The notes below the pieces were generated by a model, which did not search any database, was not told where the DNA came from, and was given only the letters and a program-made list of their open reading frames with translations. Position numbers and translations under genes: made by a program. A stretch of DNA of 46,339 bases from a virus: the IMG/VR virus record IMGVR_UViG_3300042389_000481, positions 1 to 46,339 of that record. The stretch is one strand, 5' to 3'. Shown here in pieces: positions 1 through 46,339 of this stretch; within the stretch, counting starts at the first letter, position 1; every line of letters starts with the position of its first letter.

Positions 1-136
1 GGTCCCGGGCGGCGAGGCGAAGGGCGAGGCGAAGGGCGAGGCGAAGGGCCAGAAGTCACCACCACCCTGTCCCCCCGGCCCGCGACCGGTGCGGTGCCGG
101 TGCGGTGCGGCCGGTGCGGTGCCGGGGCTCGCCGGT
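1..136. repeat. Left copy of the terminal overlap
   Basis: The first 136 bases recur at 46180-46339, the right end of the window. Both copies run from GGTCCCGGGCG through a tandem 12-bp unit (GCGAGGCGAAGG) to CTCGCCGGT. The left copy has three 12-bp units and the right copy has five, which accounts for the 24-bp length difference. The simplest reading is a circular or circularly permuted genome whose contig ends overlap. A true direct terminal repeat is also possible. The copy-number mismatch may be slippage in the virus population or an assembly error. Confidence 0.9.
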
Positions 137-430
137 CCCGGTGCCGGTGCGGTCCAGGTCCAGGCGCGGCGAGGGCGTGCCGGTGCTGGCCGGTCCCGGT
201 GCGGTCCAGGCCGGTGCGGTGCCGGTGCGGGCGTCCGGTGCGGTGCCGGTGCTGGCCGGGGCCGGTGCTGGCCGGGGCCGGTGCGGTGCGGCGTCCAGGC
301 CCGGGTCCAGGCGCGGTGCGGGGCGAGGGCGCGGTGCGGTCCCGGTGCGGTGCGGTGCGGTCCAGGTCCCGGTGCGGTGCGGTCCCGGTGCGGGGCGAGG
401 GCGGCGACGCGGTGCCGGTGCGGTGCGGTG
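82..430. repeat. GGTGC-type low-complexity tract
   Basis: This stretch is almost wholly variations on CCGGTGCGGTGC and GGTCCCGGTGC. All forward frames remain open through it only because stop codons are rare at such base composition, so it is judged non-coding. GG runs separated by TGC could form two-tier G-quadruplexes on the plus strand. The same motif recurs at about 43618-43712 and 46006-46081. Possible roles (packaging site, origin, recombination substrate) are inference. Copy numbers may be unreliable. Confidence 0.75.
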
Positions 431-432
431 CG

Positions 433-476
433 CCCCCCCCCCCTACCCCATGCGAAACCGGGGCGGGGCGGGGCGG
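433..476. other. C11 homopolymer followed by four G runs
   Basis: Eleven consecutive C bases (433-443) are followed by three GGGG runs and one GG run, each separated by a single C (460-476). This is a compact candidate G-quadruplex on the plus strand, upstream of the late block. The rest of 443-584 holds no recognisable gene. The homopolymer length is a likely sequencing weak point. Confidence 0.5.
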
Positions 477-550
477 ACACCCGGCTTGGGGTTTTCGGCT
501 TTCGGTTTGCCGCCGCGAAGGCTATGCCCCCACGCTCGCCACCAACCGAC

Positions 551-579
551 TTGTCGGCCAACCAGAAAAAAAATACTGT
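551..579 (+). promoter_or_regulatory. Candidate promoter before the terminase genes
   Basis: TTGTCG (551-556) and TACTGT (574-579) are separated by 17 bases that include an A-rich run. The -10 is a weak match. Transcription would begin at about the ATG at 585, giving a nearly leaderless message, so either the promoter or the assigned start could be wrong. No other good promoter was seen before the late block. Confidence 0.25.
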
Positions 580-584
580 GGGGT

Positions 585-1334
585 ATGCCCTATGCCCTGG
601 AGCCAAACATCCCTCCGCCGCCCGACGACACCTTTGTGGACTGGGGCGCGATCCGCACGCTTTGGGAGTCTGGAGCGTCGCTGGGGTACATTGCCAAGCG
701 CCACCCTGTGGCTCAAAGGACGGTGTCGAAGAGGTCCGCGAGTTGGGATGGGGAGAAGCGGCAGCAGGCCCTGGCTGTGCGGGGGAAGAATGCGTCGGCT
801 CCTCCTGGGAGGCCTGACTTGCCGGAGGTTGGCAGGGAGGGGAGGGGGAGTACGGTGCATGCGTGGGTGGAGACGGTCTGTTCGATCCGCGACCCTGGGT
901 GGGACGAGGAGACTTTCCCTCTGATGGACGTGGCGGAAACGCTGCACAACATCGCGAGCGGGATGCCTGTGGTCTTGGCAGCCGAGGCGGCGGGGCTGAC
1001 GGAGCGGCTGGTCCTGAAGTACCGGAGTCTTGAGCCTCGGCTGGACACGTTGTTCCGCAAGGCGCGTGCGGTGTCGGCGGCTCCGCTTGTGAAGCGGATC
1101 ATGGAGGACCGGGACTGGCGTGCGGCGGCCTGGTTGCTGGAGCGTGGGATCGCGAAGGCGGAGTTCCGGCAGGAAGCGGTCGGCAAGGACGACAAGCTGA
1201 CGATTGAGATCATGGTGAGCCGGGACGACAAGGACGCGCTTGCCAAGGTGATCGATGTGACGGAGAGCGCGCATGCCGCAATGGTCCCTGGGATACCAGC
1301 CGTCCGAGAAGCAGAGGATCTTTCACGCAGTTAA
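585..1334 (+). CDS. terS: Putative terminase small subunit
   Basis: This 249-aa protein would recognise phage DNA and hand it to the large terminase for packaging. Residues 18-45 look like a helix-turn-helix (WGAIRTLWESG, then YIAKRHPVAQRTVSKR). A second helical region near 105-145 is followed by a C-terminal part (DWRAAAWLLERG) of the kind seen in small terminase proteins. The frame is open far upstream, but that part is a translation of the GGTGC tract, so the ATG at 585 was chosen; the ribosome site is weak (GTGGGG). The gene overlaps the large terminase by 62 bases. The assignment rests on HTH content and position, since small terminases are poorly conserved. Confidence 0.72.
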   Translation: MPYALEPNIPPPPDDTFVDWGAIRTLWESGASLGYIAKRHPVAQRTVSKRSASWDGEKRQQALAVRGKNASAPPGRPDLPEVGREGRGSTVHAWVETVCSIRDPGWDEETFPLMDVAETLHNIASGMPVVLAAEAAGLTERLVLKYRSLEPRLDTLFRKARAVSAAPLVKRIMEDRDWRAAAWLLERGIAKAEFRQEAVGKDDKLTIEIMVSRDDKDALAKVIDVTESAHAAMVPGIPAVREAEDLSRS

Positions 1335-2769
1335 GGCGCGGCAGGTCCTGTATGGGGGCGCTGCGGGTGGGGGGAAGAGTCACGCGATCCGGATGGACGG
1401 GATCATCTCTTGCCTGGAGAACCCCGGCTTGCAGGCGTACCTGTTCCGGCGCACGTACCCGGAGTTGAAGGATAACCACCTGATCCCCATCCAGCAGATG
1501 GCGATCCCCCCTGAGGTGGCGATCTGGAAGGAGACAGACCGGAAGCTCACGTTCTACAACGGGGCGTTCCTCCAGTTCTGCTTTGCGGAGGATCTTGCGG
1601 ACATCTTCAAGTACCAGGGTGCGGAGATGCACTGGTTGGGGATCGATGAGGGGGCGTTGTTCCTCCCCGACCAGGTCAAGTTCCTCCGCACACGCGTTCG
1701 GTTGGGGAGGTACAGGGCGACTCAGGAGGACGTCTTCCCGCGCATCGTCATCGGCAGCAACCCTGGCGGCCCGGCGCACAACCTGCTTCGAGACATCTTC
1801 ATCGAGCAGGCCCCGCCGATGCACTTCTTCCACGACAAGACGACCAAGACGAAGACGTCCCCGGGATGGCGGAGCATCTACATCCCGGCCAAGATGGACG
1901 ACAACCCGCACCTGGATGTGGAGAGCTATGAGGGATCATTCACCGCGCTCAGTGCCGAGCGAGCCAAGGCCCTGCGGGATGGGGACTGGGATGTGGTTTC
2001 TGGAGCAGCCCTGTCCATGCTCGACAGGGGCAAGCATCTGGTCCGCAGCTTCACACCCCCACGGCACTGGACTCATTTCATGGCTATGGACTGGGGGACC
2101 GCCAAGCCATTCTCCGTTGGCTGGTACTGCATATCAGAGGGAGCAATTCTGAAGGCCCGGGACGGGTTCCCCGAGATGTACCTCCCGCCTGGCGCGAAGA
2201 TCCGGTTTGCGGAGTGGTACGGGTGGAGCGGTGAAGCAGACACCGGGGCGCGGATGTCGGCAGGTGCGGTGGCCCGAGAGGTCCTTCGCCTGGAGGCCGA
2301 GATGGGGTTGCCGCCGATGGACTTCCGAGTGGCGGACCCGCAGATGTGGGCGAGCCAAGATGGCCCCTCCCCGCAGGACAACATGCGGACCGCGACGTCG
2401 GGGCGGTTCATCCTTCGGCAGGGGCGGCGGGACCGCAAGGCCAACTACACCACAATCGTGCAGCACCTCATCGGGGAGGAAAACGCGGACGGCAAATGGG
2501 TCCCGACGTTCTTCGCGACGGCGGACTGTCGGCACTTCTGGCGCACCTGCCCCGGCCTGACCCTCGACGAGCTTGAACCAGACAAGGGACCGGCCACTCG
2601 GAGGCAAGAGGACCACGTCTACGACGAGGTCGGCTTTGCGCTGTCAGCCCATTCGCGCGTGACAACCGAGCAGGACCGGTATAAGGAGGAGATGGTCGAG
2701 CTTGCCCGGGAGATGTCGGGCGGCTCGATAGCAAGAGACCCATATGCTGTCCGCACAAGGAGGGGCTGA
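1273..2769 (+). CDS. terL: Terminase large subunit
   Basis: This is the 498-aa packaging motor ATPase and headful or end nuclease. The Walker A motif is GGAAGGGKS at residues 28-36 and the Walker B is LGIDE with D125/E126. The C-terminal RNase H-like nuclease has acidic residues in MAMDWG (D273), VADP (D355) and the DHVYDE segment (D447, D451). Length and domain order are normal for the family. A GGAGAG ribosome site lies five bases before the ATG, inside the end of the small subunit gene. Unusually, the portal gene does not follow directly: a 5.5-kb block containing sugar-transfer genes intervenes. Confidence 0.95.
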   Translation: MPQWSLGYQPSEKQRIFHAVKARQVLYGGAAGGGKSHAIRMDGIISCLENPGLQAYLFRRTYPELKDNHLIPIQQMAIPPEVAIWKETDRKLTFYNGAFLQFCFAEDLADIFKYQGAEMHWLGIDEGALFLPDQVKFLRTRVRLGRYRATQEDVFPRIVIGSNPGGPAHNLLRDIFIEQAPPMHFFHDKTTKTKTSPGWRSIYIPAKMDDNPHLDVESYEGSFTALSAERAKALRDGDWDVVSGAALSMLDRGKHLVRSFTPPRHWTHFMAMDWGTAKPFSVGWYCISEGAILKARDGFPEMYLPPGAKIRFAEWYGWSGEADTGARMSAGAVAREVLRLEAEMGLPPMDFRVADPQMWASQDGPSPQDNMRTATSGRFILRQGRRDRKANYTTIVQHLIGEENADGKWVPTFFATADCRHFWRTCPGLTLDELEPDKGPATRRQEDHVYDEVGFALSAHSRVTTEQDRYKEEMVELAREMSGGSIARDPYAVRTRRG

Positions 2770-3084
2770 GTGCGCGGCGAGGTATCTGCGAGGATCAGGG
2801 AACACATCCTGAGCCTGTCCGAGGAGTGGACCGTCGAGGATTTGATCGACGCTCTGCCCGGGACGGCGCGCGATGCCATCACGTCGGTCATCAACAACAT
2901 GCTCGTTCGGGACATGGTCAACCGGGTGGACACCCGGAAGTCCAGGTCTGGCGGCTTCGTCGCGGTCTACGAGGTCATCGACCTCGGCGAAAGCGCGACA
3001 ACAAGGCTCGACAACCCTGCGGTGTGGGCAGGCCTCATGCGTGGACAGCGATACGAGGACATCAAGCTCAAGAGGCGGCCATGA
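2770..3084 (+). CDS. Small winged-helix-like protein
   Basis: This 104-aa protein begins with GTG directly after the terminase stop codon. Residues 18-60 (TVEDLIDALPG, ITSVINNMLVRDMVNRV) followed by a short basic turn and a strand-rich GGFVAVYEV segment look like a winged helix-turn-helix. The C-terminus is basic (KLKRRP). It overlaps the next start as ATGA, so it is probably translated as part of the late operon. A regulatory or packaging-associated DNA-binding role is inference. I do not recognise a specific family. Confidence 0.65.
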   Translation: MRGEVSARIREHILSLSEEWTVEDLIDALPGTARDAITSVINNMLVRDMVNRVDTRKSRSGGFVAVYEVIDLGESATTRLDNPAVWAGLMRGQRYEDIKLKRRP

Positions 3085-3869
3085 GAAAGCTCAAGTTCTT
3101 TGCTCCCGCGAACCCGCCACACCCCTTGGGGGACAATTTGGCGCGCAACTGGATGCAGGGGGGCTTCTACGCTTCGCATGGGGAGCCCCTTGCGGACGTG
3201 AATCTGCACTACGGCATCCTCCACGGAGGGGCGGATCTGTACCGGCGGGCGAAAGACGAGGGGAAGGACTATGTCCATGTGGACCACGCCTTCTTCGGCC
3301 GCACCCAGGACCTTGCCAGCAACGACGGGTACTTCCGCTTTGCCCTCAACGGGCAGGCGAACGTGATCCGGCGGACGGTCGAACTGGATGCGCCGCGCCT
3401 GGAAGTGCTACAGGGGCGTGGATTGCTGCGCCTGGAGCCCAAGCGGGCGGTCAAGAGGAGCCGGTTGGTCATCTACCAGCCCCCAAGCGACTACATGGTC
3501 CAGCACTATGGGCTCTCGCCCGAGTTCGATGGCGAGTGGAGGGCAGCGCTGCGTCGCCTATACCCCGGCATGATGGTCGTGACCACCCAGAAGAGCCCCA
3601 AGGCAGAGGACTTCTGGGAGAACGTGTCGGTTGTCGCCAGCTTCAACTCGGGACTGGGGTTCGAGGCCCTTCGGAGGGGCTGCGAGGTGGTCATGACCGC
3701 CCCGACGACACTCTGGCCATGGCTCACCGGGGATTTGACCGAGGGGAAGTGGGCGGCCAAGCGATACGAAACCTTCTGCCTCATCGCAGGGCGCATGTGG
3801 AACTTCAAGGAGATGAAGAAGGGCGCAGCGCTCAACCACATGGCCCTCAATGGGGAGATTCCGCTGTGA
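3081..3869 (+). CDS. Capsule_synth/glycosyltransferase-like protein
   Basis: This 262-aa protein has a segment at residues 187-200 (SFNS, GFEAL, then G) resembling the donor-binding signature of capsule polysaccharide synthesis proteins (KpsC/KpsS, Capsule_synth type), followed by a strand ending in MTAPTTLW. A YVHVDHAFF segment lies at 64-72. KpsC/KpsS enzymes add Kdo to lipid acceptors; the substrate here is unknown. It opens the sugar cassette between terminase and portal and is linked by ATGA to the gene before and by GTGA to the gene after. It could instead be a different GT-B-fold protein. The family call is moderate. Confidence 0.5.
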   Translation: MRKLKFFAPANPPHPLGDNLARNWMQGGFYASHGEPLADVNLHYGILHGGADLYRRAKDEGKDYVHVDHAFFGRTQDLASNDGYFRFALNGQANVIRRTVELDAPRLEVLQGRGLLRLEPKRAVKRSRLVIYQPPSDYMVQHYGLSPEFDGEWRAALRRLYPGMMVVTTQKSPKAEDFWENVSVVASFNSGLGFEALRRGCEVVMTAPTTLWPWLTGDLTEGKWAAKRYETFCLIAGRMWNFKEMKKGAALNHMALNGEIPL

Positions 3870-4195
3870 TTAAGGCCAAATCCGCAAAGGCAAAGGGGCG
3901 TCGTCTTGAGCAATGGATTGTCAAGGAACTGGAGGCTCTTGGGCTGGCTGCTCATCGGCAACCTGGGTCTGGTGCTTTCGATGCGTTTCCTCACGATGTG
4001 TCTGCTCGACTGAAGGACGGGACGCAGATCCTGGTCGAGGCCAAGCAGCGCAAGAAGGACGCCTGGGCTACGGGCGAGCGGTGGCTGGGTCAGGCTGACG
4101 TCCTGGTGGTCCGGATCGACCCGGAGCCGTTCAAGCCCGAAAACGAGCCCCGCGTCTACATGAAGTGGTCCACGTTCCAGAGGCTAGTCAACTGA
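3866..4195 (+). CDS. Hjc-like Holliday junction resolvase/PD-(D/E)XK nuclease
   Basis: This 109-aa protein matches archaeal Hjc-type resolvases in size and motif order: KGRRLEQ with E15, RQPGSG at 31-36, an HDV strand with D44, and VEAK giving E58 and K60. A C-terminal YMKWSTFQRL segment is also usual for such enzymes. It would cut four-way or branched DNA, which is helpful before packaging of concatemers. The start is a GTG overlapping the previous stop codon. The next gene starts in its own TGATG. Its placement beside terminase rather than with the recombination genes fits a role in clearing branches for the packaging motor (inference). Confidence 0.8.
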   Translation: MIKAKSAKAKGRRLEQWIVKELEALGLAAHRQPGSGAFDAFPHDVSARLKDGTQILVEAKQRKKDAWATGERWLGQADVLVVRIDPEPFKPENEPRVYMKWSTFQRLVN

Positions 4196-4497
4196 TGCCT
4201 CGCGAGATGACCCCAGCCCGGCTCATGGGCTATCGCAAAATGGCGGACAGCAGGCGCGGAAGACGCTGCAAGAAGCTGTCCGTAGAGGGGAGCATGCACC
4301 CGCTTGTGCGGAGGCTCTTTGAACTGATCAACGAGGACCCGCTCATGACGTTCAAGGTCCTGAAGGAGCGGTCCGGGGTGCAGATCGACACGATGAGCCA
4401 GTGGCGGTACGCGCACTCCCCCGCCCTTGTGACGTTCGAGGCTGTCCTCAACGCCGCTGGCTACGAACTCTGCATTCGCAAGAGGAAGGACTCATGA
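4195..4497 (+). CDS. Small helix-turn-helix protein
   Basis: This is a 100-aa basic protein. Residues 47-92 resemble an XRE-type helix-turn-helix: DPLMTFKVLKERSG, then QIDTMSQWRYAHSPALVTFEAVLNAAGYEL. The N-terminal 35 residues are rich in Arg and Lys. The start at 4195 uses a TGATG junction with the resolvase gene, and the stop overlaps the following start as ATGA. In a late operon such a protein might tune transcription or bind DNA during packaging. It is not clearly a lysogeny repressor, since no partner or operator region is present. Confidence 0.65.
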   Translation: MPREMTPARLMGYRKMADSRRGRRCKKLSVEGSMHPLVRRLFELINEDPLMTFKVLKERSGVQIDTMSQWRYAHSPALVTFEAVLNAAGYELCIRKRKDS

Positions 4498-5012
4498 CGA
4501 CGCTCCCCCTTTACAAGCAGATGCACGCGGAGGGGAAGTTCCCCGGCCACAGCACGGAGAAGTGGTCCAGTGTCGTGCAGGAGGCGATCAAGGAGTTCGA
4601 CGCCAAGACGATCCTCGACTACGGCAGCGGAAAGGGGATGCAGTACGACTCCCTGAAGCTGCATGAGAAGTGGGGTGTGGAGCGCCCGACGCTCTACGAC
4701 CCCGCCGTCCCGGGTATCGACACCCCGCCAAGCCTCTTCCAGAAGTTCGATGGGGTGATCTGTCTCGACGTCTTGGAGCATCTCGAAGGCGACGAACTGC
4801 GACGCGCGGTCTTCGACGTGACCATGCGGGCGCGCAAGTTCGCGCTGTTCGGGATCGCGACTTTCCCCGCCAAGAAAACCCTGCCAGATGGCCGCAACGC
4901 CCACCTGACGCTCTGGGGCGAGGGCGTCTGGGCCGACTTCATCAACAGCCACCGTTTCCGCAGCAATGCGCTCGTCATGATGAACTTCGATGGAGGCCGC
5001 CGTGACCCCTGA
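4494..5012 (+). CDS. Class I SAM-dependent methyltransferase
   Basis: This 172-aa protein has the SAM-binding loop LDYGSGKG (residues 41-48) and a DGVICLDVLEHL segment (86-97) typical of Methyltransf_11/23-type small-molecule or sugar methyltransferases. No DNA-methylase catalytic motif is visible, so DNA is an unlikely substrate. It lies among glycosyltransferase-like genes, which suggests it methylates a sugar or surface glycan (inference). It overlaps the preceding gene by ATGA and the next gene by about 11 bases. Confidence 0.75.
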   Translation: MTTLPLYKQMHAEGKFPGHSTEKWSSVVQEAIKEFDAKTILDYGSGKGMQYDSLKLHEKWGVERPTLYDPAVPGIDTPPSLFQKFDGVICLDVLEHLEGDELRRAVFDVTMRARKFALFGIATFPAKKTLPDGRNAHLTLWGEGVWADFINSHRFRSNALVMMNFDGGRRDP

Positions 5013-5745
5013 CCCTCTCCCGTACTGGATCGGCTACGACGCGCGGGAGGCCGACGCATTCGACGTCTGCTCGTTCTCCGCGCAGCGCAAGAGCAGCATC
5101 GGCCTGTACGTCCGGGCGCTTCGCCACAAGGACCTGCGCGCGAGCGGGTTCTTCACGCGGCAATGGGGGATCAACCCGCAGACCGGCCAACTGTTCGACA
5201 TGCTGGACGGACTGCCGTTCTCGACCGAGTTCGCTTTCACCCGGTTCCTCGTCCCGGCGTTGCAGGGCTATAAGGGATGGGCGCTCTTCACGGACTGTGA
5301 TGTCCTGTGGCTAGACGACGTATCGAACCTAGTCGCGGAAGCGGACTCAAGGTTCGCTGTGATGGTCGTCAAACAGAACCACATACCGCAAAACCAGATC
5401 AAGATGGATGGGCAGATTCAGAAGCCGTATCCCCGAAAGAACTGGTCGTCGGTCATCCTCTTCAACTGCGAGCATCCGGCGAACCGAGCGCTCACCCCCG
5501 AGTTCGTGAACACGGCAACGGGCAGGGAGTTGCACACCTTCTCCTGGCTGGATGACGGAGAGATCGGGGATCTGTCCCCTGGCTGGAACTTCCTGGTCGG
5601 CCACACGAAGCACAACGTCAAGCCGCGCCTGATGCACTTCACCGATGGCGGTCCGTGGTTCGAGCATATGCGGGACGTCCCGTTCGGCGGGTGGTGGACA
5701 AACGAGTATGACCTGATGCTCAAGCAGAAGGGGAAGTTCGAGTGA
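5002..5745 (+). CDS. Glycosyltransferase with DxD motif
   Basis: This 247-aa protein begins YWIGYDAREADAF and contains a metal-binding DxD motif in FTDCDVLW (about residues 96-103), the hallmark of GT-A fold transferases such as GT8-like enzymes. Conserved-looking Trp, His and Gly segments follow (SPGWNFLVGH; LMHFTDGGPW). It would transfer a sugar from a nucleotide donor. The GTG at 5002 is preferred over the ATG at 4990 because a GGAGG lies five bases upstream of the GTG and nothing comparable precedes the ATG. Its stop overlaps the next GTG start. Confidence 0.78.
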   Translation: MTPDPLPYWIGYDAREADAFDVCSFSAQRKSSIGLYVRALRHKDLRASGFFTRQWGINPQTGQLFDMLDGLPFSTEFAFTRFLVPALQGYKGWALFTDCDVLWLDDVSNLVAEADSRFAVMVVKQNHIPQNQIKMDGQIQKPYPRKNWSSVILFNCEHPANRALTPEFVNTATGRELHTFSWLDDGEIGDLSPGWNFLVGHTKHNVKPRLMHFTDGGPWFEHMRDVPFGGWWTNEYDLMLKQKGKFE

Positions 5746-6332
5746 AGAAGATTGGGGACTGGTGGCTGCCGAGCGCCGACGAGCATTTCTTCGGTGACGT
5801 CACGAACTACCAGAGGGCGTCGTATGACGCGGCCGTGGAGTACGTCCGCACGTTCGGCACCGCAATCGACGTGGGCGCGCACATCGGCATCTTCACGCGC
5901 AGGATGTCACACGCCTTCTCCCTGGTCCACGCCTTCGAGCCTGACGCCAGGAACTACGCCTGCCTTGTCCGCAACGCGCAGGACTGGGATGTGAAGGCCA
6001 CCTTCGGGGCTGCTGGCGCGCAGCGGGGCATGGGGGATGTCCGGGTGGACGCCTTGGCGAACTCCGGAGCGCGTGGCTTCGAGGCCTCCGCCACCGGGTC
6101 GGTGCCAATGTACGCCATCGACGAGTTCAGCTACGCCAACCTGGGGCTCATCAAGATCGACACGGAGGGCTTCGAGCATCGGGTGATCGTCGGTGCGCTA
6201 CACACGATCAAGGCCCACAAGCCGGTCCTGATTGTGGAACGCCCAGGCCAGGATGCCGAAAGGGTTCTGGGCTTGTTTGGGTACAAAGTCGCCAGGGTCA
6301 TCGGCAAGGACAGCATTTTCGTGGAGGGATGA
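5742..6332 (+). CDS. FkbM-family methyltransferase
   Basis: This 196-aa protein shows the FkbM pattern: the SAM motif AIDVGAHIGIFT at about residues 41-52, an AFEPD segment that places an acidic residue on the cofactor ribose, and LIKIDTEGFEHRV near 134-146. FkbM proteins O-methylate sugars and polyketides. In a phage late operon a glycan substrate is the likely one (inference). It starts with GTG overlapping the glycosyltransferase stop and is followed one base later by the fusion gene. Confidence 0.85.
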   Translation: MKKIGDWWLPSADEHFFGDVTNYQRASYDAAVEYVRTFGTAIDVGAHIGIFTRRMSHAFSLVHAFEPDARNYACLVRNAQDWDVKATFGAAGAQRGMGDVRVDALANSGARGFEASATGSVPMYAIDEFSYANLGLIKIDTEGFEHRVIVGALHTIKAHKPVLIVERPGQDAERVLGLFGYKVARVIGKDSIFVEG

Positions 6333-6333
6333 A

Positions 6334-8298
6334 ATGAAGGTTATGGTTTGCTCGACGTGGTCGGATGCCGGGTTCGAGGCGTATGGTCGAAGGTGGCTGG
6401 AGACGGCCGAGGAGCATTGGGCCAAAGGCATCGACATCAACGTCATCACCGACGCCCGGCTGGCGATGGCCCCGGAGTTTCGCAGCTTCATGGAGCGGCA
6501 CGCGGCGTCGAGGCTCGATCAGGGCGAGCCCGGGTACGACTACCGGCAGGACTTGGTTCGGTTCTGCCACAAGGTCTTCGCAATCCGGGCCGCCCTCGAA
6601 GACGCCCTCGAAGACGACCACGATTGGCTGATCTGGCTCGACGGCGACGTGGAGACTCGCGCGCCCCTGACCATGGAGTTCCTGGCCAGCATCTTGCCGG
6701 AGGACAAGGACGGAGTCCTCCTCTCTCGCGCGCACACCGCACCACACCCGGAATGCGGGTTCATGGCCTTCAACCTCCGCCGGAAGGGGGCCGACTTCAT
6801 CCGCAAGTTTGCGGGCATGTACGTCAAGGACGACGTCCTGAAGCTCGCGGAACTGCACGACAGCTACGTGTTCATGGTCTGCGTGCTGGCGCATGTCGAG
6901 TCCGACCAGAGCGAGTGGCACGACCTTTGCCCAGTCGGCGGAGGCCCACATGGCCTGGACGCCTTCGAGGCAAGTCCCTTGGACAGCGTGTTCGTCCACA
7001 AGAAGGGCGGGCGCAAGGCCGGGATGACTAACGCGGAGATCATTGCCCGCCTGCTGGCGGGGAGGATCGGGAAGGTCATTCACCCGGGCGAAGGGTTCGA
7101 CCTCGCAGACAGTCACGTCCCCATCGTCGATTGTGTGATGCAGCCGGTCGAGGCAATCCGCGAGTCGCTCGCCAAGATTGGCGACAAGCCCATGATATTG
7201 TTGGGGTTTTACTCCTCCGACGAGGAGGGACGGCACGTTGACACAAGCCGCTTTGGCATCAACGCTGTGCGGACCGACGTCGTTGCGTTCGAGTCTGTGG
7301 AGCGCGCGACGGACGGGCTTGGGTTCGTCCATGTGGCGGCCACCCGGGACTTCGAGCCAATCCCCGACGCTCTCCCGGTGTTCCATCACCGGCAGATGTC
7401 GATGATCAAGAAGGAGCAGATCAAGGCGATCACGAACAACGCCTACCAGACGAACATGGTCGTCCAGACGCAGAACTGCGTCCCGAACGAGACGATCCAG
7501 GCGAACATCGTCGCAAACCTGGGCCAGATCCAGAACTGGGTGGTCTACGCCAAGCACCACATGCGCCGGGCGGTCGTCGCCTCGGCCGGTCCGTCGCTCG
7601 ACATGCCAGAGACCATCGAGGCCATCCGCCGGGAGGTCGAGCAAGGTGCGGTGCTGTTCTGCGTCAAGCACAGCCACCAGAAACTCATCGACGCCGGGCT
7701 GGTCCCTTGGGGGTGCGTCCTCCTCGACCCTCGCCCGCATGAGGGGATCTCCACACACGGACGCCCCCGGGCGGAACTGCTGCCCGCCGCGCATCCAGAG
7801 GTGCGGTACTTCTGCGCCTCGATGGTTGACCCGAGTGTGGTGAGGCGTCTTCTCGACAGCGGCGGCAAGGTCTACGGGTGGCACGCTGCCGTGGGGGCCG
7901 ATGAGAAGTCGGTCCTCCCGCCCGAACACCAGAAGTTTCTGATGGGGGGAGGATCTTCGTCGGCGGTTCGCGCTATGATCCTGGCGTGGCAATTCCTCGG
8001 CTTCCAGTCGATTGGGCTGTATGGCTTCGACTCCTGTCACCTCGACGAGAGCAAGCTCGACAAGTCCGCGCGGCACCAGGATGGCACCCCAAAATACGTC
8101 CCGATGGACGTCTCGGTGGGGGGCAGGAGTCGGCAGTTCTGGACGGACAGAGACATCCTCTGTCAGGCCCAAGACTTCACCCGGCTTCTTCAGGAGAGCC
8201 CGTGGATTCAGTGGGACGCGCACGGTCCCGGCATCGTTGCGTGGCTGTGGCAGAACACGCGCGGAGTGATGCCCACGCTTGAGGAGACGTATGTATGA
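6334..8298 (+). CDS. Glycosyltransferase fused to MptE/Maf-like (DUF115) domain
   Basis: This 654-aa protein appears to have two domains. The N-terminal 280 residues resemble a GT-A transferase with the DxD motif WLIWLDGDVE (D103, D105) and an ECGFMAFNLRRKG segment. The C-terminal part from about residue 410 resembles the MptE-like/DUF115 fold, with VASAGPSLD near 416-424, VKHSHQKLIDAGLVPW and MGGGSSSAVRAMILA near 536-550. In bacteria DUF115 proteins include the Maf flagellin glycosylation factors, which attach nonulosonic sugars to Ser/Thr. The start follows a GGAGGG site. It overlaps the portal start by ATGA. Substrate and target are unknown. Confidence 0.75.
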   Translation: MKVMVCSTWSDAGFEAYGRRWLETAEEHWAKGIDINVITDARLAMAPEFRSFMERHAASRLDQGEPGYDYRQDLVRFCHKVFAIRAALEDALEDDHDWLIWLDGDVETRAPLTMEFLASILPEDKDGVLLSRAHTAPHPECGFMAFNLRRKGADFIRKFAGMYVKDDVLKLAELHDSYVFMVCVLAHVESDQSEWHDLCPVGGGPHGLDAFEASPLDSVFVHKKGGRKAGMTNAEIIARLLAGRIGKVIHPGEGFDLADSHVPIVDCVMQPVEAIRESLAKIGDKPMILLGFYSSDEEGRHVDTSRFGINAVRTDVVAFESVERATDGLGFVHVAATRDFEPIPDALPVFHHRQMSMIKKEQIKAITNNAYQTNMVVQTQNCVPNETIQANIVANLGQIQNWVVYAKHHMRRAVVASAGPSLDMPETIEAIRREVEQGAVLFCVKHSHQKLIDAGLVPWGCVLLDPRPHEGISTHGRPRAELLPAAHPEVRYFCASMVDPSVVRRLLDSGGKVYGWHAAVGADEKSVLPPEHQKFLMGGGSSSAVRAMILAWQFLGFQSIGLYGFDSCHLDESKLDKSARHQDGTPKYVPMDVSVGGRSRQFWTDRDILCQAQDFTRLLQESPWIQWDAHGPGIVAWLWQNTRGVMPTLEETYV

Positions 8299-10577
8299 GC
8301 GCAGACCGCAAGTGGCGAGGGGACAACGAAAGGGTCAAGCGCACCAAGCGTCAGGCCCTGAACGCTCTCCTCGTCAACATTGCGGACAGCCTCGACGAAC
8401 AGGAGCGTGAGTCCATCGCCCAAGTCTGCATGGAGGACTTCCGTGCAGACCGGGACAGCCGCGCCGAGTGGGACGCGATGCACGCGGACTGGGTCGCGGT
8501 CTACAACCAGCAGGATGCCCCGTACAACCGGCCATGGCCCGGGTCATCGGACGAGTCGCTGGGCCTCCTGACGGAGGCGTGCAACTCCTTCCAGGCGCGG
8601 GCATACAAGGCGTTCTTCGCCTCGCGTATGCCCGTCGCCGCCGTCTCGACCAGGCCATCGGACCCGAATGCCTCGCAGCGGGCCAAGCGAGTCAGCCAGT
8701 TCCTCCAGTGGTCCCTGTTCTTCAAGGACCAGACCTACAAGGAAGACAAGGCCGCGATGCTGCTACGCGTGGCGGTCCACGGGTCTGACTTCAGCAAGAC
8801 CTACTTCGACCCGGTGATGAACCGGATCGTCACGCGCCCCGTGCGTGCGGAGGACCTGTTCGTCCCGTACCACATCGGCCCGATCAACATCGAGGATGTG
8901 CACCGGAAGAGCGAACTCATCCACCTGCAACTGAACGAGGGGCGGATTCGGGCTGCGGAGGGGTACTTCCTCTTCCCGCCGGAGGCCATGATGGTCGGGC
9001 AGATCGAGTCCCCGATCCAGCAGCAGAACGACAGGGACAACGGGTTCCGGCCAACCGCGACACAGAGCGAGGACATGGCCCAGATTATCGAGCAGCACCG
9101 GGATCTAGACCTGGACGGAGACGGCATTGGCGAGCCGTACAAGGTCTGGGTGGACGTGACGTCCGAGAAGTTGCTCCGCATCGAGGTGCGGTATGAGGTG
9201 GACGAGTCGGGGAGGCCCCTGAACGGCCGCCTGCCCATCGAGGAATATACCCACTACCGGTTCCTCGCGAACCCGGACGGCTTCTACGGCTACGGGCTGG
9301 GGTTCCTCCTCGGGAAGACCAACATTGCCATCAACAAGCTCCTGCGCCAGTTCATCGACGCCACGACGCTGTCGATCCACGGCAACATGAGCGGCTTCAT
9401 CTCGGAGGCCCTGAACATCAGCAAGGGGCCGGTCAAGATCGAACTCGGCACCCTGAAGACGGTCTCCGCAAGCACCGACGACATCCAGAAGGGGATCAAG
9501 ACCCTCTCATTCCCTGCCCCACCACCTACCCTGATGCAGGCTATCGCCCAGCTTGAGGGGCGAGCCCAGCGCATCGGCGCGACGACGGATGCCGCAGCGG
9601 GGGACATCAACAAGGTCTTCCAGCCGACGACCATGCAGACCATGGTCGAGCAGTCGCTGGTCATGTTCACCAGCGTGCAGGAGTTCCTGCTGCACTCCTG
9701 GTCCAAGGAACTGAACAAGATCTACCGGCTGCACGGCATCTACTTCCGGGGCGTCGAGGGCTTCATCTCGATTGGCCTCGAAGGCCCCGAGGAGATGGTC
9801 GTCACGGAGCAGGACTTCGCTGACGACATGCTCATCATGCCCGTTGCTGACCCGCGCATGATGACCCAGCAGTCTCGCCTCCAGAAGGCGCAGTTCCTGT
9901 TCGAGTTCGCCACCAAGAACCCCATTGTCGGGAACAACCCGGAGGTCCTCCTTGCGGTGTCAAGGAGGCTCCTTGAGGAGATGGAGATCGATGGCATTGA
10001 CAGCATTCTTCCGCGATCTGTGGACGAGCTTCCTCCGCCTGCGCCAGATCCGAAGGCGATGGCGGAGCAGGCAAAGGTTCAGGTCGAGCAACAGAAGCTT
10101 CAGCTAGAGGCCCAGAAGGTCCAGCAGACGGTCCAGCTTGAAGCCCAGAAGATGCAGGTTGACCAGCAGATGAAGCAGGCATCGATGGTTGGCGACCAGC
10201 AGCTTCAGCAGATGCGGATCGAGAACGAACGGGTGATCGCTCAGATGCGGATGGAGCATGAGCGGATGATCGCCCAGGAGAAGCTGGCCCTGGAGCAGAC
10301 CCTGGCGACCATGAAGCTGGAGGTCCAGGCCCAGATCGACCGCGAAAAGATCAGGCTCGACGCCGAGATCAAGCGTGAGGCGGAGCAGTCTCGGGCGCAG
10401 GCGACCCGTGAGCAGCAGCAGGCCGCAACGCAATCGACCGAGGCCGGGGCCAAGCAGGTGGCGGAGATCGTGAAGGCCATGACGACTGCCATGGCCGGGC
10501 CGAAGGAGGTCAAGATCGTGTCGCCGCCGCGCGAGGTCATCATCAATCACAAGGGCGACAACGGTTCGCCAACCTAA
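8295..10577 (+). CDS. Portal protein
   Basis: This 760-aa protein forms the dodecameric portal through which DNA is packaged and ejected. The N-terminal two thirds has podovirus-type portal features, with a conserved-looking RPWPGSSDESLGLLTEACN segment near residues 77-95 and a mixed alpha/beta core. Residues 590-740 form a long Gln/Lys/Glu-rich coiled coil, probably the barrel or a crown extension. A GAGGAG ribosome site precedes the ATG, which overlaps the previous stop codon. Being large and separated from the terminase by a sugar cassette is unusual. Identification rests on sequence pattern, size and position. Confidence 0.85.
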   Translation: MSADRKWRGDNERVKRTKRQALNALLVNIADSLDEQERESIAQVCMEDFRADRDSRAEWDAMHADWVAVYNQQDAPYNRPWPGSSDESLGLLTEACNSFQARAYKAFFASRMPVAAVSTRPSDPNASQRAKRVSQFLQWSLFFKDQTYKEDKAAMLLRVAVHGSDFSKTYFDPVMNRIVTRPVRAEDLFVPYHIGPINIEDVHRKSELIHLQLNEGRIRAAEGYFLFPPEAMMVGQIESPIQQQNDRDNGFRPTATQSEDMAQIIEQHRDLDLDGDGIGEPYKVWVDVTSEKLLRIEVRYEVDESGRPLNGRLPIEEYTHYRFLANPDGFYGYGLGFLLGKTNIAINKLLRQFIDATTLSIHGNMSGFISEALNISKGPVKIELGTLKTVSASTDDIQKGIKTLSFPAPPPTLMQAIAQLEGRAQRIGATTDAAAGDINKVFQPTTMQTMVEQSLVMFTSVQEFLLHSWSKELNKIYRLHGIYFRGVEGFISIGLEGPEEMVVTEQDFADDMLIMPVADPRMMTQQSRLQKAQFLFEFATKNPIVGNNPEVLLAVSRRLLEEMEIDGIDSILPRSVDELPPPAPDPKAMAEQAKVQVEQQKLQLEAQKVQQTVQLEAQKMQVDQQMKQASMVGDQQLQQMRIENERVIAQMRMEHERMIAQEKLALEQTLATMKLEVQAQIDREKIRLDAEIKREAEQSRAQATREQQQAATQSTEAGAKQVAEIVKAMTTAMAGPKEVKIVSPPREVIINHKGDNGSPT

Positions 10578-10595
10578 CGAACGAAAGGGCATGAC

Positions 10596-11027
10596 ATGGG
10601 CAAGAGCCGCGACTTCTCGAACGACTTCCTCAAGCTGTTCTTCAACGGCGGAGCCATCGCCAATCTGGCGCAGAACACCGGCACGTCGCCCCTGACGGAC
10701 CTGTGGTTCAGCCTCCACAGCGCAGACCCCGGCGCGACGGGCAACCAGACGACCAGCGAGGTCGGCTACACCTCCTATGTCCGTGCTGCGGTGGCGCGCA
10801 CGTCGGCCGCGTTTGTGGTGTCGGCCAACACGGTGCGCTTGGCCGCGAACCTGGACTTCGCCGCTTCGACCGGTGGCGCGGCGGTCTCCGCAACCTTCTT
10901 CAGCGTGGGGAAGGGGAGTAGCGGGGCCACGCAGATCCTGTATTCTGGCACCCTGACGCCTGGGATCTCGATCTCCAGCGGCACGACCCCTCGCATCAAC
11001 TCGGGCCAGATCATCACGGAGGACTGA
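10596..11027 (+). CDS. Virion protein of the short phage tail-fibre type
   Basis: This 143-aa protein contains the pattern LHSADPG, then TSEVGYTSYVRAAV, then a series of small-residue beta strands ending IITED. Such proteins are often annotated as phage tail fibre proteins in siphoviruses and podoviruses. It lies directly after the portal and starts a run of surface proteins. An AAAGGG ribosome site lies nine bases upstream of its ATG. The precise location in the particle cannot be told. Confidence 0.6.
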   Translation: MGKSRDFSNDFLKLFFNGGAIANLAQNTGTSPLTDLWFSLHSADPGATGNQTTSEVGYTSYVRAAVARTSAAFVVSANTVRLAANLDFAASTGGAAVSATFFSVGKGSSGATQILYSGTLTPGISISSGTTPRINSGQIITED

Positions 11028-11028
11028 C

Positions 11029-12327
11029 GTGGCAGACAACGTCGGCATCACCCCAGGCTCTGGGGACAAAGCCGCAAGCCGGTCCGTCACCTATTCGGGA
11101 GAGACGGCACAGGTCCAGATCGTTGGCCTGTCCGTTGTCTCCGGTCCGGACGACGCCAAGACGGTTGAGGATGTCAGCGCAGTCGCCCCTCTTCCCGTTC
11201 GCATGGACCAGGGGCCGGGCGCTCTGGTCACCGAGAATGGTGCGCTGCGGGTTGACCCGACTCAGGTCAACGAACAGGCGCAGGAAGTCCTCAACGCCAC
11301 CGGCTTGCATAGCCTTGGCGATGGGCCGCTCCAGATGGTCGGATTGCACCCAAGCTTCCCCCTGCCCATCGACACCGCGACGCCGATGCCGATTGCGGGG
11401 CGGGACTCGACGGGCGCGCAGCGGCAAGCGCTTACAGACAGCGATGGGGCGCTTCGCACGCTTGGCAAAGACGCCGGTCCTTTCTTGTATGGGCCAGACC
11501 AGGGAATATCAGGGAACCGGAACGGAGCAGTTTTCTCTGTTGAGGGATACAGCGCGATTGTGGTGTGGGCGATCACGGCAGGCTCAAACCTAGGAGTTCA
11601 GCAGTCGGTTGATGGCATCCGATTTGGGAGTGCTTCGGCTGGCGTAACGACGCTGGCGGGGGGCTTCAGCCTTGCGGCTAACGGTGGCATGTCAACAACG
11701 GAGTACACCGTATTCCCTGTCGTCGGGAAATTCGCGCGCATCAATTTCGGCGGGACGATCACAGGCCAGCCGCTGGTCCTGGTTTACCTCAAGGCCGGTC
11801 CACTAGGCTTCAACCTGTCTTTGACAACGACCAATTTGGCCCAGATCGGTGGCTTCGCCGTCACTGCAAACACTCCCCAACTTGCGGTGAATGCGTTTGG
11901 TCCGACCGCCCCAAACGCGGCCCACAGCACCAACGCGCCAGTGCAGATTTCCGGCTCAGATGGCACGACCGTGAGGCGCATCCTGACCGATGTTGCAGGA
12001 AACACCCAAGTCGTCGGCGGGCTGGTTGCGGGCGCGTCCGCTCTTCTCAGCACCACTGGCGTGCGCCCCGTTCAGCAGGGGGTGCTGGACGGAGAGGGCC
12101 GAGTTCGCCATGTGGTGGGGACGACCAGGGGGCAAGTTGGCGTTCGCCTGGACGACGCCACCACCACATCGGAAGCTGGCGTGCTTGATGCCCTCAACGA
12201 TGTGGTACGCGAACTGAAACTCCTCAACGCGCGTATCGCAGATCTTCCCTATTGGCTAGGCGTCGGTGCGGCGATGCCTGATGACGCCTCGACCTTCCGC
12301 GACGACCCATATCTCTTCAATCAGTAA
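11029..12327 (+). CDS. Virion structural protein, probably surface or fibre
   Basis: This 432-aa protein begins at a GTG one base after the previous stop, with a GGAGG site upstream. The N-terminus (VTYSGETAQVQIVGL) resembles the start of phage surface proteins that carry a small beta domain. The middle is Gly/Ser/Thr-rich beta sequence, and the end has a short helical stretch (DALNDVVRELKLLNARIADL, residues about 386-405). No enzymatic motif was seen. Position between portal and Gly-rich fibre supports a structural role. Confidence 0.55.
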   Translation: MADNVGITPGSGDKAASRSVTYSGETAQVQIVGLSVVSGPDDAKTVEDVSAVAPLPVRMDQGPGALVTENGALRVDPTQVNEQAQEVLNATGLHSLGDGPLQMVGLHPSFPLPIDTATPMPIAGRDSTGAQRQALTDSDGALRTLGKDAGPFLYGPDQGISGNRNGAVFSVEGYSAIVVWAITAGSNLGVQQSVDGIRFGSASAGVTTLAGGFSLAANGGMSTTEYTVFPVVGKFARINFGGTITGQPLVLVYLKAGPLGFNLSLTTTNLAQIGGFAVTANTPQLAVNAFGPTAPNAAHSTNAPVQISGSDGTTVRRILTDVAGNTQVVGGLVAGASALLSTTGVRPVQQGVLDGEGRVRHVVGTTRGQVGVRLDDATTTSEAGVLDALNDVVRELKLLNARIADLPYWLGVGAAMPDDASTFRDDPYLFNQ

Positions 12328-12338
12328 GGAGACTACCA

Positions 12339-13010
12339 ATGCTTGTTCAAGGCACGACCGGCCCGGTCAACTTCGGCGATGGCGTCAACCCGCCGCTGCG
12401 CCAGGGTCGCCAGGGCGACGTGATCATGTCGGCTCTGCATGGCGAAATGTACGAGCAGAATTATCGCGGCAACATGTTCTTCACCGGTCACACCGGTCTC
12501 ACGGCGCTGTCGGCTAACACGATCACACTGACGGCGACGACGACCCCCATCCTGGGCGTCTACAATCCGGCCTCGTCGCCCGTCAACTTGGTCATTATGC
12601 GCGCGATGCTTCAAGTCGTCGCGAACAACCTGACCAGCGGCGCAGCTCCGGGTGCCTTTATGTGGGCGGTCTCCACAGGCAACAACGCGATCTCCACTGG
12701 CCTGACCCCGTACAACGCCAAAAGCCTCGTCGCCGCCGGATCGCAGGGTCGCGGTTTTGCGGGTGCGACCGCTTTGACCGGCTTGACGAACAACCTCGTC
12801 ATCGCTGCCGGAAGCCTCTTCAGCAGCCCCACGGGCCTGACGTACACGACCCTCGGCAGCACCTCCCTGCTGAACGGCTACGGTGGTTTCGAGAACTTCG
12901 ACGGCTCGATCATCGTCCCGCCGGGTGGCGTGCTGGCGCTGCTGAATACGACCTCCTCGACGACGTTCAGTGCTTTCGGCCGTATACACTGGGAAGAAGT
13001 CCCGATCTGA
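12339..13010 (+). CDS. Virion structural protein
   Basis: This 223-aa protein is low in charge and rich in Gly, Ser, Thr, Leu and Asn, consistent with a beta-sandwich surface or decoration protein. It opens MLVQGTTGPVNFGDG and contains MSALHGEMYEQN near residue 30, then alternating beta strands to the C-terminal FGRIHWEEVPI. An AAGGAG ribosome site is correctly spaced before the ATG. I do not recognise the family with confidence. A capsid or tail decoration role is inferred from composition and neighbours. Confidence 0.55.
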   Translation: MLVQGTTGPVNFGDGVNPPLRQGRQGDVIMSALHGEMYEQNYRGNMFFTGHTGLTALSANTITLTATTTPILGVYNPASSPVNLVIMRAMLQVVANNLTSGAAPGAFMWAVSTGNNAISTGLTPYNAKSLVAAGSQGRGFAGATALTGLTNNLVIAAGSLFSSPTGLTYTTLGSTSLLNGYGGFENFDGSIIVPPGGVLALLNTTSSTTFSAFGRIHWEEVPI

Positions 13011-36642: not shown

Positions 36643-36989
36643 TTGCTGCCTCCTTTCTTCTTGCGGACCACCTCATCGACAACGTCCGTGTCGATGACAT
36701 CGATGGTCTTGTCCACCCAGTCGAGTTGCACCCCGACCTGCTTGTTGGGGTCCAGCCTCACCCCATGCGTCTTGAGGACGAAACCGAAGATCATGCCCCG
36801 CACATCCTCTTCGATGCTTTTCCGGCGCTCGGTGAGGCTCCTGATGATGACATGCAACTCATCGGATGCACTCTGCGCCGCGCGGATTGCGAGGAGGGAC
36901 GTCTCCGGCATCTCGGACATATCGAAGCGGCGACCCAGTTGGATCGCCGCCTCCGCCACCGCTTGGTGGATTTCGTCCTCATGCCTCAT
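36639..36989 (-). CDS. Hypothetical protein between ERF and SSB-tail genes
   Basis: This 116-aa protein is helical at first (DEIHQAVAEAAIQLGRRF; LHVIIRSLTERRKSIEEDVR) and beta-rich later (GVRLDPNKQVGVQLDWVDKT), with a basic tail (RKKKGGSK). It overlaps the ERF gene by 11 bases. No family is recognised. Its context suggests a recombination or replication accessory protein. Confidence 0.55.
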   Translation of the reverse strand: MRHEDEIHQAVAEAAIQLGRRFDMSEMPETSLLAIRAAQSASDELHVIIRSLTERRKSIEEDVRGMIFGFVLKTHGVRLDPNKQVGVQLDWVDKTIDVIDTDVVDEVVRKKKGGSK

Positions 36990-37623
36990 TGGCGAAGCTC
37001 CCCACAAGCCGGTCCTTGATCGCCATGATCTCCAGGTATCCGGCCTCGCTCGTCTTCTTGACGAGCAGGATCAGGTCCTTGCGCTTGAGCATGACCTCCG
37101 CAAGCTCTGTTGCGTCCTTCGCCGCTTGCATCTCTTCGCGCACCAGCTTGAATGCGGCGCGCGGGTCGCTTGAGGGGTCAGCCTTCGACGGCTTGTCCCG
37201 CATGGTCTGAAGGGTGTTGCCATCCGCCCCATTCGCGTCGTCGTCCTCCTCGGCCGCGAGCCCGAAGAACGACGCCACCTGATACCGGCGGGCGAACGTC
37301 ATCAGGCTCCCGAGTTCCTGCATCTTCCCCACCCGTCCAGAGTCAATGGGCATGCATGTGGAGATGTGCGCCCCAGACGCATGGAACAGGCGGAGGCACA
37401 TGACCATGCCGTCCTCGCGCCGCTCCAAAGTCTGGGTCATGGCGAGCCCGTTCTTCGCGAGCGGGACGCGCACGATGTCGAGGATGCTGTCGAGCGTCGC
37501 GTAGGCGAACTTGTAGCTGCCCTTGTCCGACTTGACCGTCACTTCGCGGTTCTTGATCGGGTTCGACATCTCGCCCTGCGCCTTGGCGAGCGCCCCGTAC
37601 AGGGCTCCCTGCTGGTCTTCCAT
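36979..37623 (-). CDS. erf: ERF-family single-strand annealing protein
   Basis: This 214-aa protein resembles the ERF superfamily: YKFAYATLDSILDIVR, LAKNGLAMTQT and MQELGSLMTFARRYQVASFFGL followed by an acidic AAEEDDDAN. ERF proteins anneal complementary single strands for phage recombination and circularisation. The second of two nearby ATG codons is chosen because a GGAGG lies seven bases upstream; the first is adjacent to the GGAGG and overlaps the exonuclease stop. It is paired with the exonuclease gene upstream. Confidence 0.85.
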   Translation of the reverse strand: MEDQQGALYGALAKAQGEMSNPIKNREVTVKSDKGSYKFAYATLDSILDIVRVPLAKNGLAMTQTLERREDGMVMCLRLFHASGAHISTCMPIDSGRVGKMQELGSLMTFARRYQVASFFGLAAEEDDDANGADGNTLQTMRDKPSKADPSSDPRAAFKLVREEMQAAKDATELAEVMLKRKDLILLVKKTSEAGYLEIMAIKDRLVGSFANEA

Positions 37624-37625
37624 GG

Positions 37626-46179: not shown

Positions 46180-46339
46180 GGTCCCGGGCGGCGAGGCGAA
46201 GGGCGAGGCGAAGGGCGAGGCGAAGGGCGAGGCGAAGGGCGAGGCGAAGGGCCAGAAGTCACCACCACCCTGTCCCCCCGGCCCGCGACCGGTGCGGTGC
46301 CGGTGCGGTGCGGCCGGTGCGGTGCCGGGGCTCGCCGGT
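46180..46339. repeat. Right copy of the terminal overlap with 12-bp array
   Basis: This copy matches bases 1-136 but contains five, not three, units of GCGAGGCGAAGG. It is preceded by a duplicated GGTCCCGGGCG. It supports circular closure or terminal redundancy. Confidence 0.9.

Follow-up and report, generated by a model that had tools for sequence, protein, structure and literature searches.

The window (the whole stretch of DNA analysed) comprises 46,339 nt, positions 1 to 46,339 of IMGVR_UViG_3300042389_000481, and represents an uncultivated lineage of short-tailed-type phages. Eight coupled genes lie between the terminase large subunit gene, terL (1273-2769), and the portal gene (8295-10577). 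Five of them encode sugar-type enzymes: a KpsC-like GT-B protein, a class I methyltransferase, a DxD glycosyltransferase, an FkbM methyltransferase, and a GT6-like/PF01973 fusion. The features are as follows.

1273..2769, + strand: terminase large subunit, left border (phrog_979, E 1.6e-33)
2770..3084, + strand: small protein, possibly winged-helix, varies among relatives (weak matches only)
3081..3869, + strand: KpsC/Kdo-transferase-like GT-B protein, CapS (predicted fold, AlphaFold pLDDT 90.6)
3866..4195, + strand: Hjc/RusA-like Holliday junction resolvase-type nuclease (phrog_244, E 1e-7; PF01870 slightly below cut-off)
4195..4497, + strand: small protein, possibly helix-turn-helix, often swapped out in relatives (no family match at E<0.05)
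4494..5012, + strand: class I SAM methyltransferase, MT1 (phrog_24759, E 2.5e-19; PF13489, E 7e-6)
5002..5745, + strand: GT-A-type glycosyltransferase with a DCD (DxD) motif, GTA (phrog_28018, E 1.7e-60)
5742..6332, + strand: FkbM-family methyltransferase (PF05050, E 4e-11; TIGR01444, E 5e-19)
6334..7065, + strand: fusion protein, N-terminal GT6-like glycosyltransferase domain, residues 1-244 (Foldseek matches)
7471..8298, + strand: fusion protein, C-terminal Maf/MptE-like domain (PF01973, E 6.8e-13, over cut-off)
8295..10577, + strand: portal protein, right border (phrog_1216, E 5e-18)
10596..11027, + strand: fibre I-like protein (Gp80), a candidate virion surface protein next to the cassette, mosaic (PF23140, E 4.5e-12)

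The genes overlap or abut, with junctions of -11 to +1 bases at ATGA, GTGA, or TGATG, as expected from the original prediction that start and stop codons link them. The interval it gave, 3081-8298, is correct: it begins where the KpsC-like gene starts and ends at the stop codon of the fusion gene, which the portal start overlaps at 8295. Its account of the content holds for the five sugar-type enzymes and the resolvase-like nuclease; it is corrected in that there are two small proteins, which together with the nuclease are non-carbohydrate. Because the cassette genes overlap terL and portal, they are presumably made in the late phase. No sigma-70-type promoter-like site was found in 1-12500 and terminators there occur at chance level. 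The start of GTA was placed at GTG 5002, with ATG 4990 as an alternative. An antisense ORF (6298-8223, 641 aa) overlaps a conserved gene on the other strand, at 64% GC, and was not counted as a gene.

CapS (262 residues) had been called Capsule_synth-like. Pfam, PHROG, and NCBIfam gave no match for it, and Capsule_synth (PF05159) matched none of 15 CapS members and nothing in the window. The fold matches of its AlphaFold model in the PDB are KpsC (GT107), KrkA (GT140), and WbbB (GT99). The search gave 26 matches with E<=0.001, of which the best 23 are all Kdo transferases (best E 1e-7). Against KpsC the TM score is about 0.5 with an rmsd of 8.7, so the similarity holds mainly domain by domain. 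CapS is predicted to have the overall fold of the retaining beta-Kdo transferases (GT99/107/140). These enzymes use a QXXXD motif with a nucleophilic Asp (PMC10148158, PMC12887879). With the register inferred from strand position and not from superposition, the Gln at the equivalent strand end of CapS (Gln133) is kept in 13/15 homologues. Unlike in KpsC, WbbB, and KrkA, the Asp is not conserved, position 137 being D, T, A, V, H, G, S, P, or Q in the same register. The (K/R)XHP CMP-binding motif is not conserved either; there is no His at the expected place, which mostly reads K-S/G-P. Because these defining catalytic motifs are missing, the Capsule_synth label is limited to the level of fold and Kdo use by CapS is not established. 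Kdo was considered as the donor, and their absence weakens it.

The fusion of a glycosyltransferase to an MptE/Maf-like domain is as originally proposed, the N-terminal part by fold and the C-terminal part by both profile and fold. Foldseek matched the N domain to BoGT6a and the ABO/alpha-1,3-Gal transferases (E from 3e-6), and its DGD motif (D103/D105) is invariant among homologues; a profile search gave no GT6 match. The PF01973 domain scored 49.2 bits against a cut-off of 34.6. In the fusion model, which is poor overall (pLDDT 67.5, about 90 in the first 50 residues), the best PDB match of this domain is the Maf flagellin glycosyltransferase 5mu5 (E 1.3e-7). Maf proteins have a Rossmann-like N domain, a central PF01973 domain, and a helical C domain (PMC11339370). 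The phage protein shares the central domain but lacks this three-domain architecture: its N part resembles GT6 enzymes, and it extends just about 85 residues beyond the central domain. The GT6-like domain is a separate ORF in relative L073. In relative L063 the PF01973 domain is instead fused to a methyltransferase, and there the MptE-like domain has a weak PDB sequence match to 5mu5 (E 0.29).

The PF01973 family also includes archaeal 6-hydroxymethylpterin diphosphokinase, and M. jannaschii HPPK (8sd5) is among the fold matches of the fusion model. Such a relationship would suit enzymes acting on a small molecule of the host (a metabolite, a nucleotide, or a signalling compound), as in counter-defence, and not on a polymer. 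We give this reading scarcely any credence: three to four glycosyltransferase-type domains and two methyltransferases, with an epimerase and GT9 added in relatives, fit a glycan chain better.

GTA belongs to phrog_28018, a family without a named function. Its DxD motif, predicted at the outset, is DCD in the window, and D98 and D100 are invariant across 16 homologues. Weak GT8 similarity was seen in 12/16 members, below the cut-off of Pfam Glyco_transf_8 (best member E 0.0012; window protein 12.7 bits against 24.3). The FkbM methyltransferase passes the curated cut-offs of both PF05050 (43.8 bits against 22.7) and TIGR01444 (69.1 against 37.7), and its SAM motif residues are invariant across 12 homologues. 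MT1 is likewise the class I methyltransferase that had been proposed, with its SAM-binding motif invariant among homologues. The profile searches suggested as a check therefore placed FkbM and PF01973 over cut-off but not Capsule_synth, GT6, or GT8, while structure prediction led from the KpsC-like model to Kdo transferases and from the fusion model to GT6 enzymes and Maf. Searching PDB sequences with the fusion protein, the DxD enzyme, and the KpsC-like protein, or with their profiles, returned nothing useful, and catalase matches among them were noise.

The cassette is inherited vertically with terL and portal and is under purifying selection. It sits in the same terL-portal position in about 30 related contigs, with dN/dS medians of 0.18-0.36. 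CapS, GTA, and the PF01973 domain occur in every relative whose contig spans the interval (TerL identity at least 49%), and pairwise distances of the sugar-enzyme genes follow those of portal (r 0.80-0.95). The kept position, low dN/dS, and invariant SAM-binding and DxD motifs show that the cassette is not there by chance. The core clade is monophyletic in the GTA tree (support 0.999), but deeper terL/portal-linked carriers (L063, L065, L073, L106, L108, L136) do not group with it in a single clade, so the tree does not demonstrate one acquisition event. The premise that terL and portal are normally adjacent holds among relatives as the usual state but not universally: they adjoin in two distant cultured or assembled relatives, and in the relative HTVC027P two large genes separate them. 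L073 lies within a Myxococcales MAG; such a host was rejected, as the 50 kb L073 contig has the appearance of a complete phage, with a terminal repeat of 84 bases.

The Hjc-like nuclease is 70-95% identical across the clade, far more conserved than the sugar genes, and follows portal less well (r 0.62). The small protein at 2770..3084 has 29-60% identity in relatives that have it, and the presence of that at 4195..4497 varies. The behaviour of the nuclease could mean that the slot houses a late DNA-processing function alongside an unrelated glycan cargo without a role in the particle. This is improbable, given that the core sugar genes are kept in every interval-spanning relative and that the sugar genes track portal so closely, unlike dispensable cargo.

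Variable slots in the relatives hold further genes of glycan type: a sugar-nucleotide epimerase (PF01370, E 7e-47), GT9, extra methyltransferases, and a methyltransferase with rhamnosyl O-methyltransferase/CmcI similarity. Three relatives (L039/L007/L062) carry in the same slot a DpdA-like and YhhQ/Vut_1 pair of the 7-deazaguanine DNA modification type. DNA glycosyltransferases are known from phages, and the transferases could glycosylate modified phage bases against restriction. We consider this very improbable: no base-hypermodification gene was seen among the early genes scanned, and we know of no action on DNA by Maf, FkbM, or KpsC-type enzymes.

The enzyme set also recurs outside the clade. 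Among 68 loci with the DxD enzyme, mostly in unrelated phages, 57 hold a KpsC-like protein and 46 a GT6-like domain. Cultured carriers are Caulobacter phage CcrColossus and its relatives and Pelagibacter phage Mosig. Comparable sets occur among the late genes of CcrColossus and of ctDrO704, where an annotated FkbM gene and GTA adjoin a head-adaptor gene. In marine T4-like phages the KpsC-like/DxD/GT6-like trio, its genes recognised by eye, lies among replication/recombination genes and not structural ones, so a late-gene position is not universal. In Synechococcus phage S-SCSM2R, GTA has both KdsA and KdsB encoded nearby, and four marine loci have KdsA near it; because CapS is not recognised in S-SCSM2R, the pair there is no proof of a Kdo donor.

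These Kds genes could instead point to the host surface, with the LPS or capsule of the infected cell altered so as to block superinfection or re-adsorption of progeny to debris. The KpsC-like fold is known from capsule/LPS enzymes, and GT9 heptosyltransferase-type genes occur in L063 and, by annotation, in CcrColossus. We regard this as rather unlikely. The core genes are fixed, without the swapping of a serotype locus. No cassette protein has a membrane segment (no 19-residue window with mean hydropathy >1.4), so there is no sign of lipid-linked assembly or flipping, and the hydropathy scan and family profile searches revealed no flippase, polymerase, or lipid-phosphate transferase among them. 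The Gtr serotype-conversion cassettes of P22 and SfV, which also bring phage-borne glycosyltransferases, need a membrane flippase and a polytopic transferase, both absent here. Their usual carriers are temperate phages; no integrase was seen in the window, so lysogenic conversion is not expected. From the Maf-like domain, the lack of membrane segments, and the fact that neither an integrase nor Gtr genes were seen, we infer that cytoplasmic glycosylation of virion proteins is favoured over Gtr-type conversion of the host surface.

Profile matches, folds, conserved motifs, gene order, and joint occurrence in other phages give good support to the glycan-building cassette of the late operon that was originally predicted, and to methyl capping of its product. 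We give slightly better than even weight to a soluble pathway, expressed late, in which a short methylated sugar chain is built on the phage's own virion protein(s) in the host cytoplasm. Drawing on host nucleotide sugars, the Maf-like domain or a GT-A domain would start the chain by linking a sugar to Ser/Thr of a virion protein. Further sugars would come from the GT6-like domain and from the DxD and KpsC-like enzymes, and MT1 and FkbM would O-methylate and cap the chain. Maf enzymes are soluble and O-glycosylate proteins in the cytoplasm. They modify flagellin Ser/Thr, and some accept CMP-Neu5Ac or CMP-Kdo (PMC11339370). This reportedly precedes flagellin export (PMC4065374). Points against the pathway are the lack of Maf's own N and C domains, the different gene setting in marine T4-like phages, and a search that found no flagellin-type acceptor; no flagellin or nonulosonic-acid gene was recognised among the window genes scanned. 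Of the targets first proposed, virion proteins are thus the one we lean to, host-surface change is less favoured, and a fibre acceptor is disfavoured because the cassette does not co-vary with fibre genes: those just downstream are mosaic, with distances against portal at r 0.43 (Gp80) and -0.44 in small samples.

Glycosylation of a phage's own particle is known in few cases, and the enzymes and rules behind it are mostly uncharted. Freeman et al. reportedly described virion glycosylation in mycobacteriophages Che8 and Rita in 2023. As in the cassette, phage-encoded glycosyltransferases of a tailed phage are involved. One source reports the Che8 and Rita glycans on capsid proteins and, in the related Maravista, the genes near the genome 3' end (PMC11256854); the present set lies between terminase and portal. 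Relative to those systems it appears to add Maf-like, KpsC-like, and GT6-like domains. Literature searches found no published account of such a cassette between terminase and portal. We judge it a variant of known phage glycan modification.

Within one uncultivated lineage the cassette forms a fixed core, and its main components are found jointly in dozens of unrelated phage loci. These may represent a portable protein-glycosylation system of many unrelated phages, with a KpsC-like/DxD/GT6-like core joined in this clade by a Maf-like domain. Its product would be virion proteins bearing a methylated glycan with an ulosonic acid, supplied as a CMP-sugar and perhaps the host's Kdo or a similar one; we advance this tentatively, as possible but doubtful. 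Phages now offer a divergent fold of the Kdo-transferase kind and a Maf-like domain for assays of donor and acceptor, and cultured carriers make phage self-glycosylation and its sugars a direct mass-spectrometry question. In CcrColossus, gp126-gp131 comprise an MptE-like protein, two CapS-like proteins, a DxD glycosyltransferase (36% identity), and an MT1-like protein, plus GT9. Unlike in the window, in CcrColossus and related Caulobacter jumbo phages these are separate genes at another site of a much larger phage, set in CcrColossus between a tail-protein gene and the lysis genes.

The original prediction of a sugar-transfer and methyltransferase cassette between the terminase and portal genes was correct in its coordinates and gene list, and gene calls in this interval confirm that the cassette exists. 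Its borders are:

1273-2769, + strand: terL, left border of the cassette
8295-10577, + strand: portal gene, right border of the cassette

Eight genes fill the interval, every one on the + strand, with junctions of -11 to +1 bases (overlap or gap). In order, they encode a small protein that may be of the winged-helix type, CapS (KpsC-like), a nuclease resembling resolvases, another small protein, the class I methyltransferase MT1, the DxD glycosyltransferase GTA, an FkbM methyltransferase and, last, a fusion protein of 654 residues. A 641-codon open frame antisense to the fusion gene (6298-8223, - strand) is probably a by-product of high GC. Since positions 11-136 of the 46,339-base virus record exactly copy its last 126 bases, the window is probably a complete, circularised genome. 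Very GC-rich tandem repeats, of 12-base GGCGAGGCGAAG and CCGGTG-type units, lie at 1-480 and 46190-46339.

A profile search of the window scored the FkbM methyltransferase and the MptE-like domain of the fusion protein above curated cut-offs. Phage protein families were hit by MT1 (a methyltransferase family, E 2.5e-19) and by GTA (phrog_28018, without known function, E 2e-60), and the nuclease matched RusA-like resolvases (E 1e-7). Across homologues, neither the DxD-type motifs of the two GT-A domains nor the SAM motifs of the methyltransferases vary. CapS matched no profile in these searches. The best 23 PDB fold matches of its AlphaFold model (pLDDT 90.6) are all Kdo transferases (KpsC, KrkA, WbbB), from E 1e-7. 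Two motifs are common to retaining Kdo transferases: QXXXD, which bears the nucleophilic Asp, and (K/R)XHP, which serves CMP; strong divergence within this superfamily has been stressed (PMC10148158, PMC12887879). CapS is like them in fold and in the Gln, retained in 13 of 15 homologues, but unlike them in the freely variable Asp position and in HP, mostly replaced by S/G-P, with the motif register read from where the second domain's first strand ends rather than from superposition. Because the Asp and HP are not conserved, CapS is, on its model, a Kdo transferase fold that we do not file as a Kdo transferase.

Prediction was less confident for the fusion protein (pLDDT 67.5). Among fold matches of its model, 5mu5, a Maf glycosyltransferase, ranks first (E 1.3e-7), ahead of GT6 enzymes (BoGT6a, ABO, alpha-1,3-Gal transferase) and HPPK of M. 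jannaschii. From the position of PF01973 (residues 392-570) and the match lengths, we infer that the N-terminal domain accounts for the GT6 matches and the C-terminal one for those to Maf and HPPK. The same block in L073, a phage contig from a Myxococcales MAG, has the GT6-like and PF01973 parts on separate genes, and a related locus, L063, joins the PF01973 part to a methyltransferase domain. The window's protein is thus probably a later fusion.

With the fusion protein and terL as queries, 67 related loci were retrieved. Where TerL identity was at least 49% and the interval was covered, the terL-portal interval contains CapS, GTA and the PF01973 domain. Some of these loci lack FkbM, and MT1 and FkbM are both missing in one branch. 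The variable slots contain, in L059, a sugar-nucleotide epimerase (PF01370, E 7e-47), a Methyltransf_24 protein similar to rhamnosyl O-methyltransferase/CmcI and, by a weak match, a possible 2OG oxygenase; in L063, a GT9; and in L047 and, judged by sequence, L054, an extra methyltransferase. terL and portal are adjacent in QDWS535 and ct2os315 (portal identity 27-29%), and HTVC027P has two large genes between them.

Several relatives carry further genes. In L039 (5634-6817), L007 and L062, the slot that separates FkbM from the fusion gene encodes a DpdA-like queuine transglycosylase (phrog_887, E 2.5e-53) together with a transporter of Vut_1/YhhQ type, which suggests a 7-deazaguanine DNA modification insert. 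L073 (contig QZKR01000020.1) is an apparent whole phage of this kind with an 84-base terminal repeat, and its cassette has an internal radical SAM-like gene (phrog_21308, E 0.001). In L045 (4608-6938), L046 and L057, TerL is interrupted in frame after residue 450 by about 280 extra residues, which start CFVAGTLV, end VHN before C and most likely represent an intein.

The GTA search returned at least 571 confirmed relatives. Among the best 68 GTA loci outside the clade, which are best matches and not a random sample, fetched flanks of up to 8 kb held a CapS-like gene in 57, a GT6-like domain in 46, FkbM in 25, MT1 in 16 and a PF01973 domain in 6. None of the four loci picked for comparison by their terL or portal had these co-occurring genes, and terL or portal was also present in only 5 of the 68. 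CcrColossus has enzyme types in common with the window (MptE-like, two CapS-like, GTA and MT1-like genes), along with a GT9 gene, but at a different site, between a tail-protein gene and lysis genes rather than between terL and portal. Pelagibacter phage Mosig has FkbM, GT6-like, GTA and CapS-like genes, and some marine loci, L131 and L155 among them, carry a trio of such genes amid apparent T4-type replication genes; KdsA lies farther along in L131, in L155 and in two other marine loci. In Synechococcus phage S-SCSM2R (L178, 8992-12517), a GTA relative is close to KdsB and KdsA, by annotation phage-borne CMP-Kdo synthesis genes. By gene content, the cassette enzymes look like a portable phage glycan toolkit. 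Phage-encoded glycan modification is already known as a kind, to which the window cassette adds a new variant; the module is of interest as conserved, widespread and testable in cultured phage.

Median dN/dS was 0.36 for CapS, 0.25 for MT1, 0.18 for GTA, 0.22 for FkbM and 0.21 for the fusion gene, versus 0.22 (portal) and 0.12 (terL); for distant pairs, dS is close to saturation. In protein distance, the sugar enzymes follow portal (r 0.80-0.95; terL 0.89, Hjc-like nuclease 0.62), whereas fibre I (PF23140; r 0.43, n=7) and the gene after it (r -0.44, n=4) do not. In these few genomes, the sequences thus indicate that cassette and packaging genes are inherited together and that fibres are exchanged, which speaks against a fibre-specific role. 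In the window's 10596-12327 region, the fibre I protein is 98% identical to that of L054, versus 74% for portal and 61% for the fusion protein, pointing to fibre-module exchange.

The predicted glycan-building function is strongly supported as a carbohydrate role; for its target, we infer a virion protein. Some Maf enzymes accept CMP-Kdo (PMC11339370), and their glycosylation of flagellin on Ser/Thr precedes export (PMC11339370; PMC4065374). The best reading is that soluble cassette enzymes would glycosylate a virion protein using host nucleotide sugars, with methyl capping after sugar transfer. The main rival is modification of the host surface. Its lipid-linked, Gtr-like form is less likely, since no cassette protein has a membrane segment and the scanned window genes showed no integrase. 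DNA glycosylation or a small-molecule target is less likely.

Elsewhere in the window, an ERF annealing protein and YqaJ-type exonuclease pair (36979-38429, - strand) adjoins a replication initiation-like protein, and a 111-residue protein (42175-42510, - strand) carries the C-terminal DNA-binding domain of DnaA as a stand-alone unit (PF08299, E 1.7e-8).
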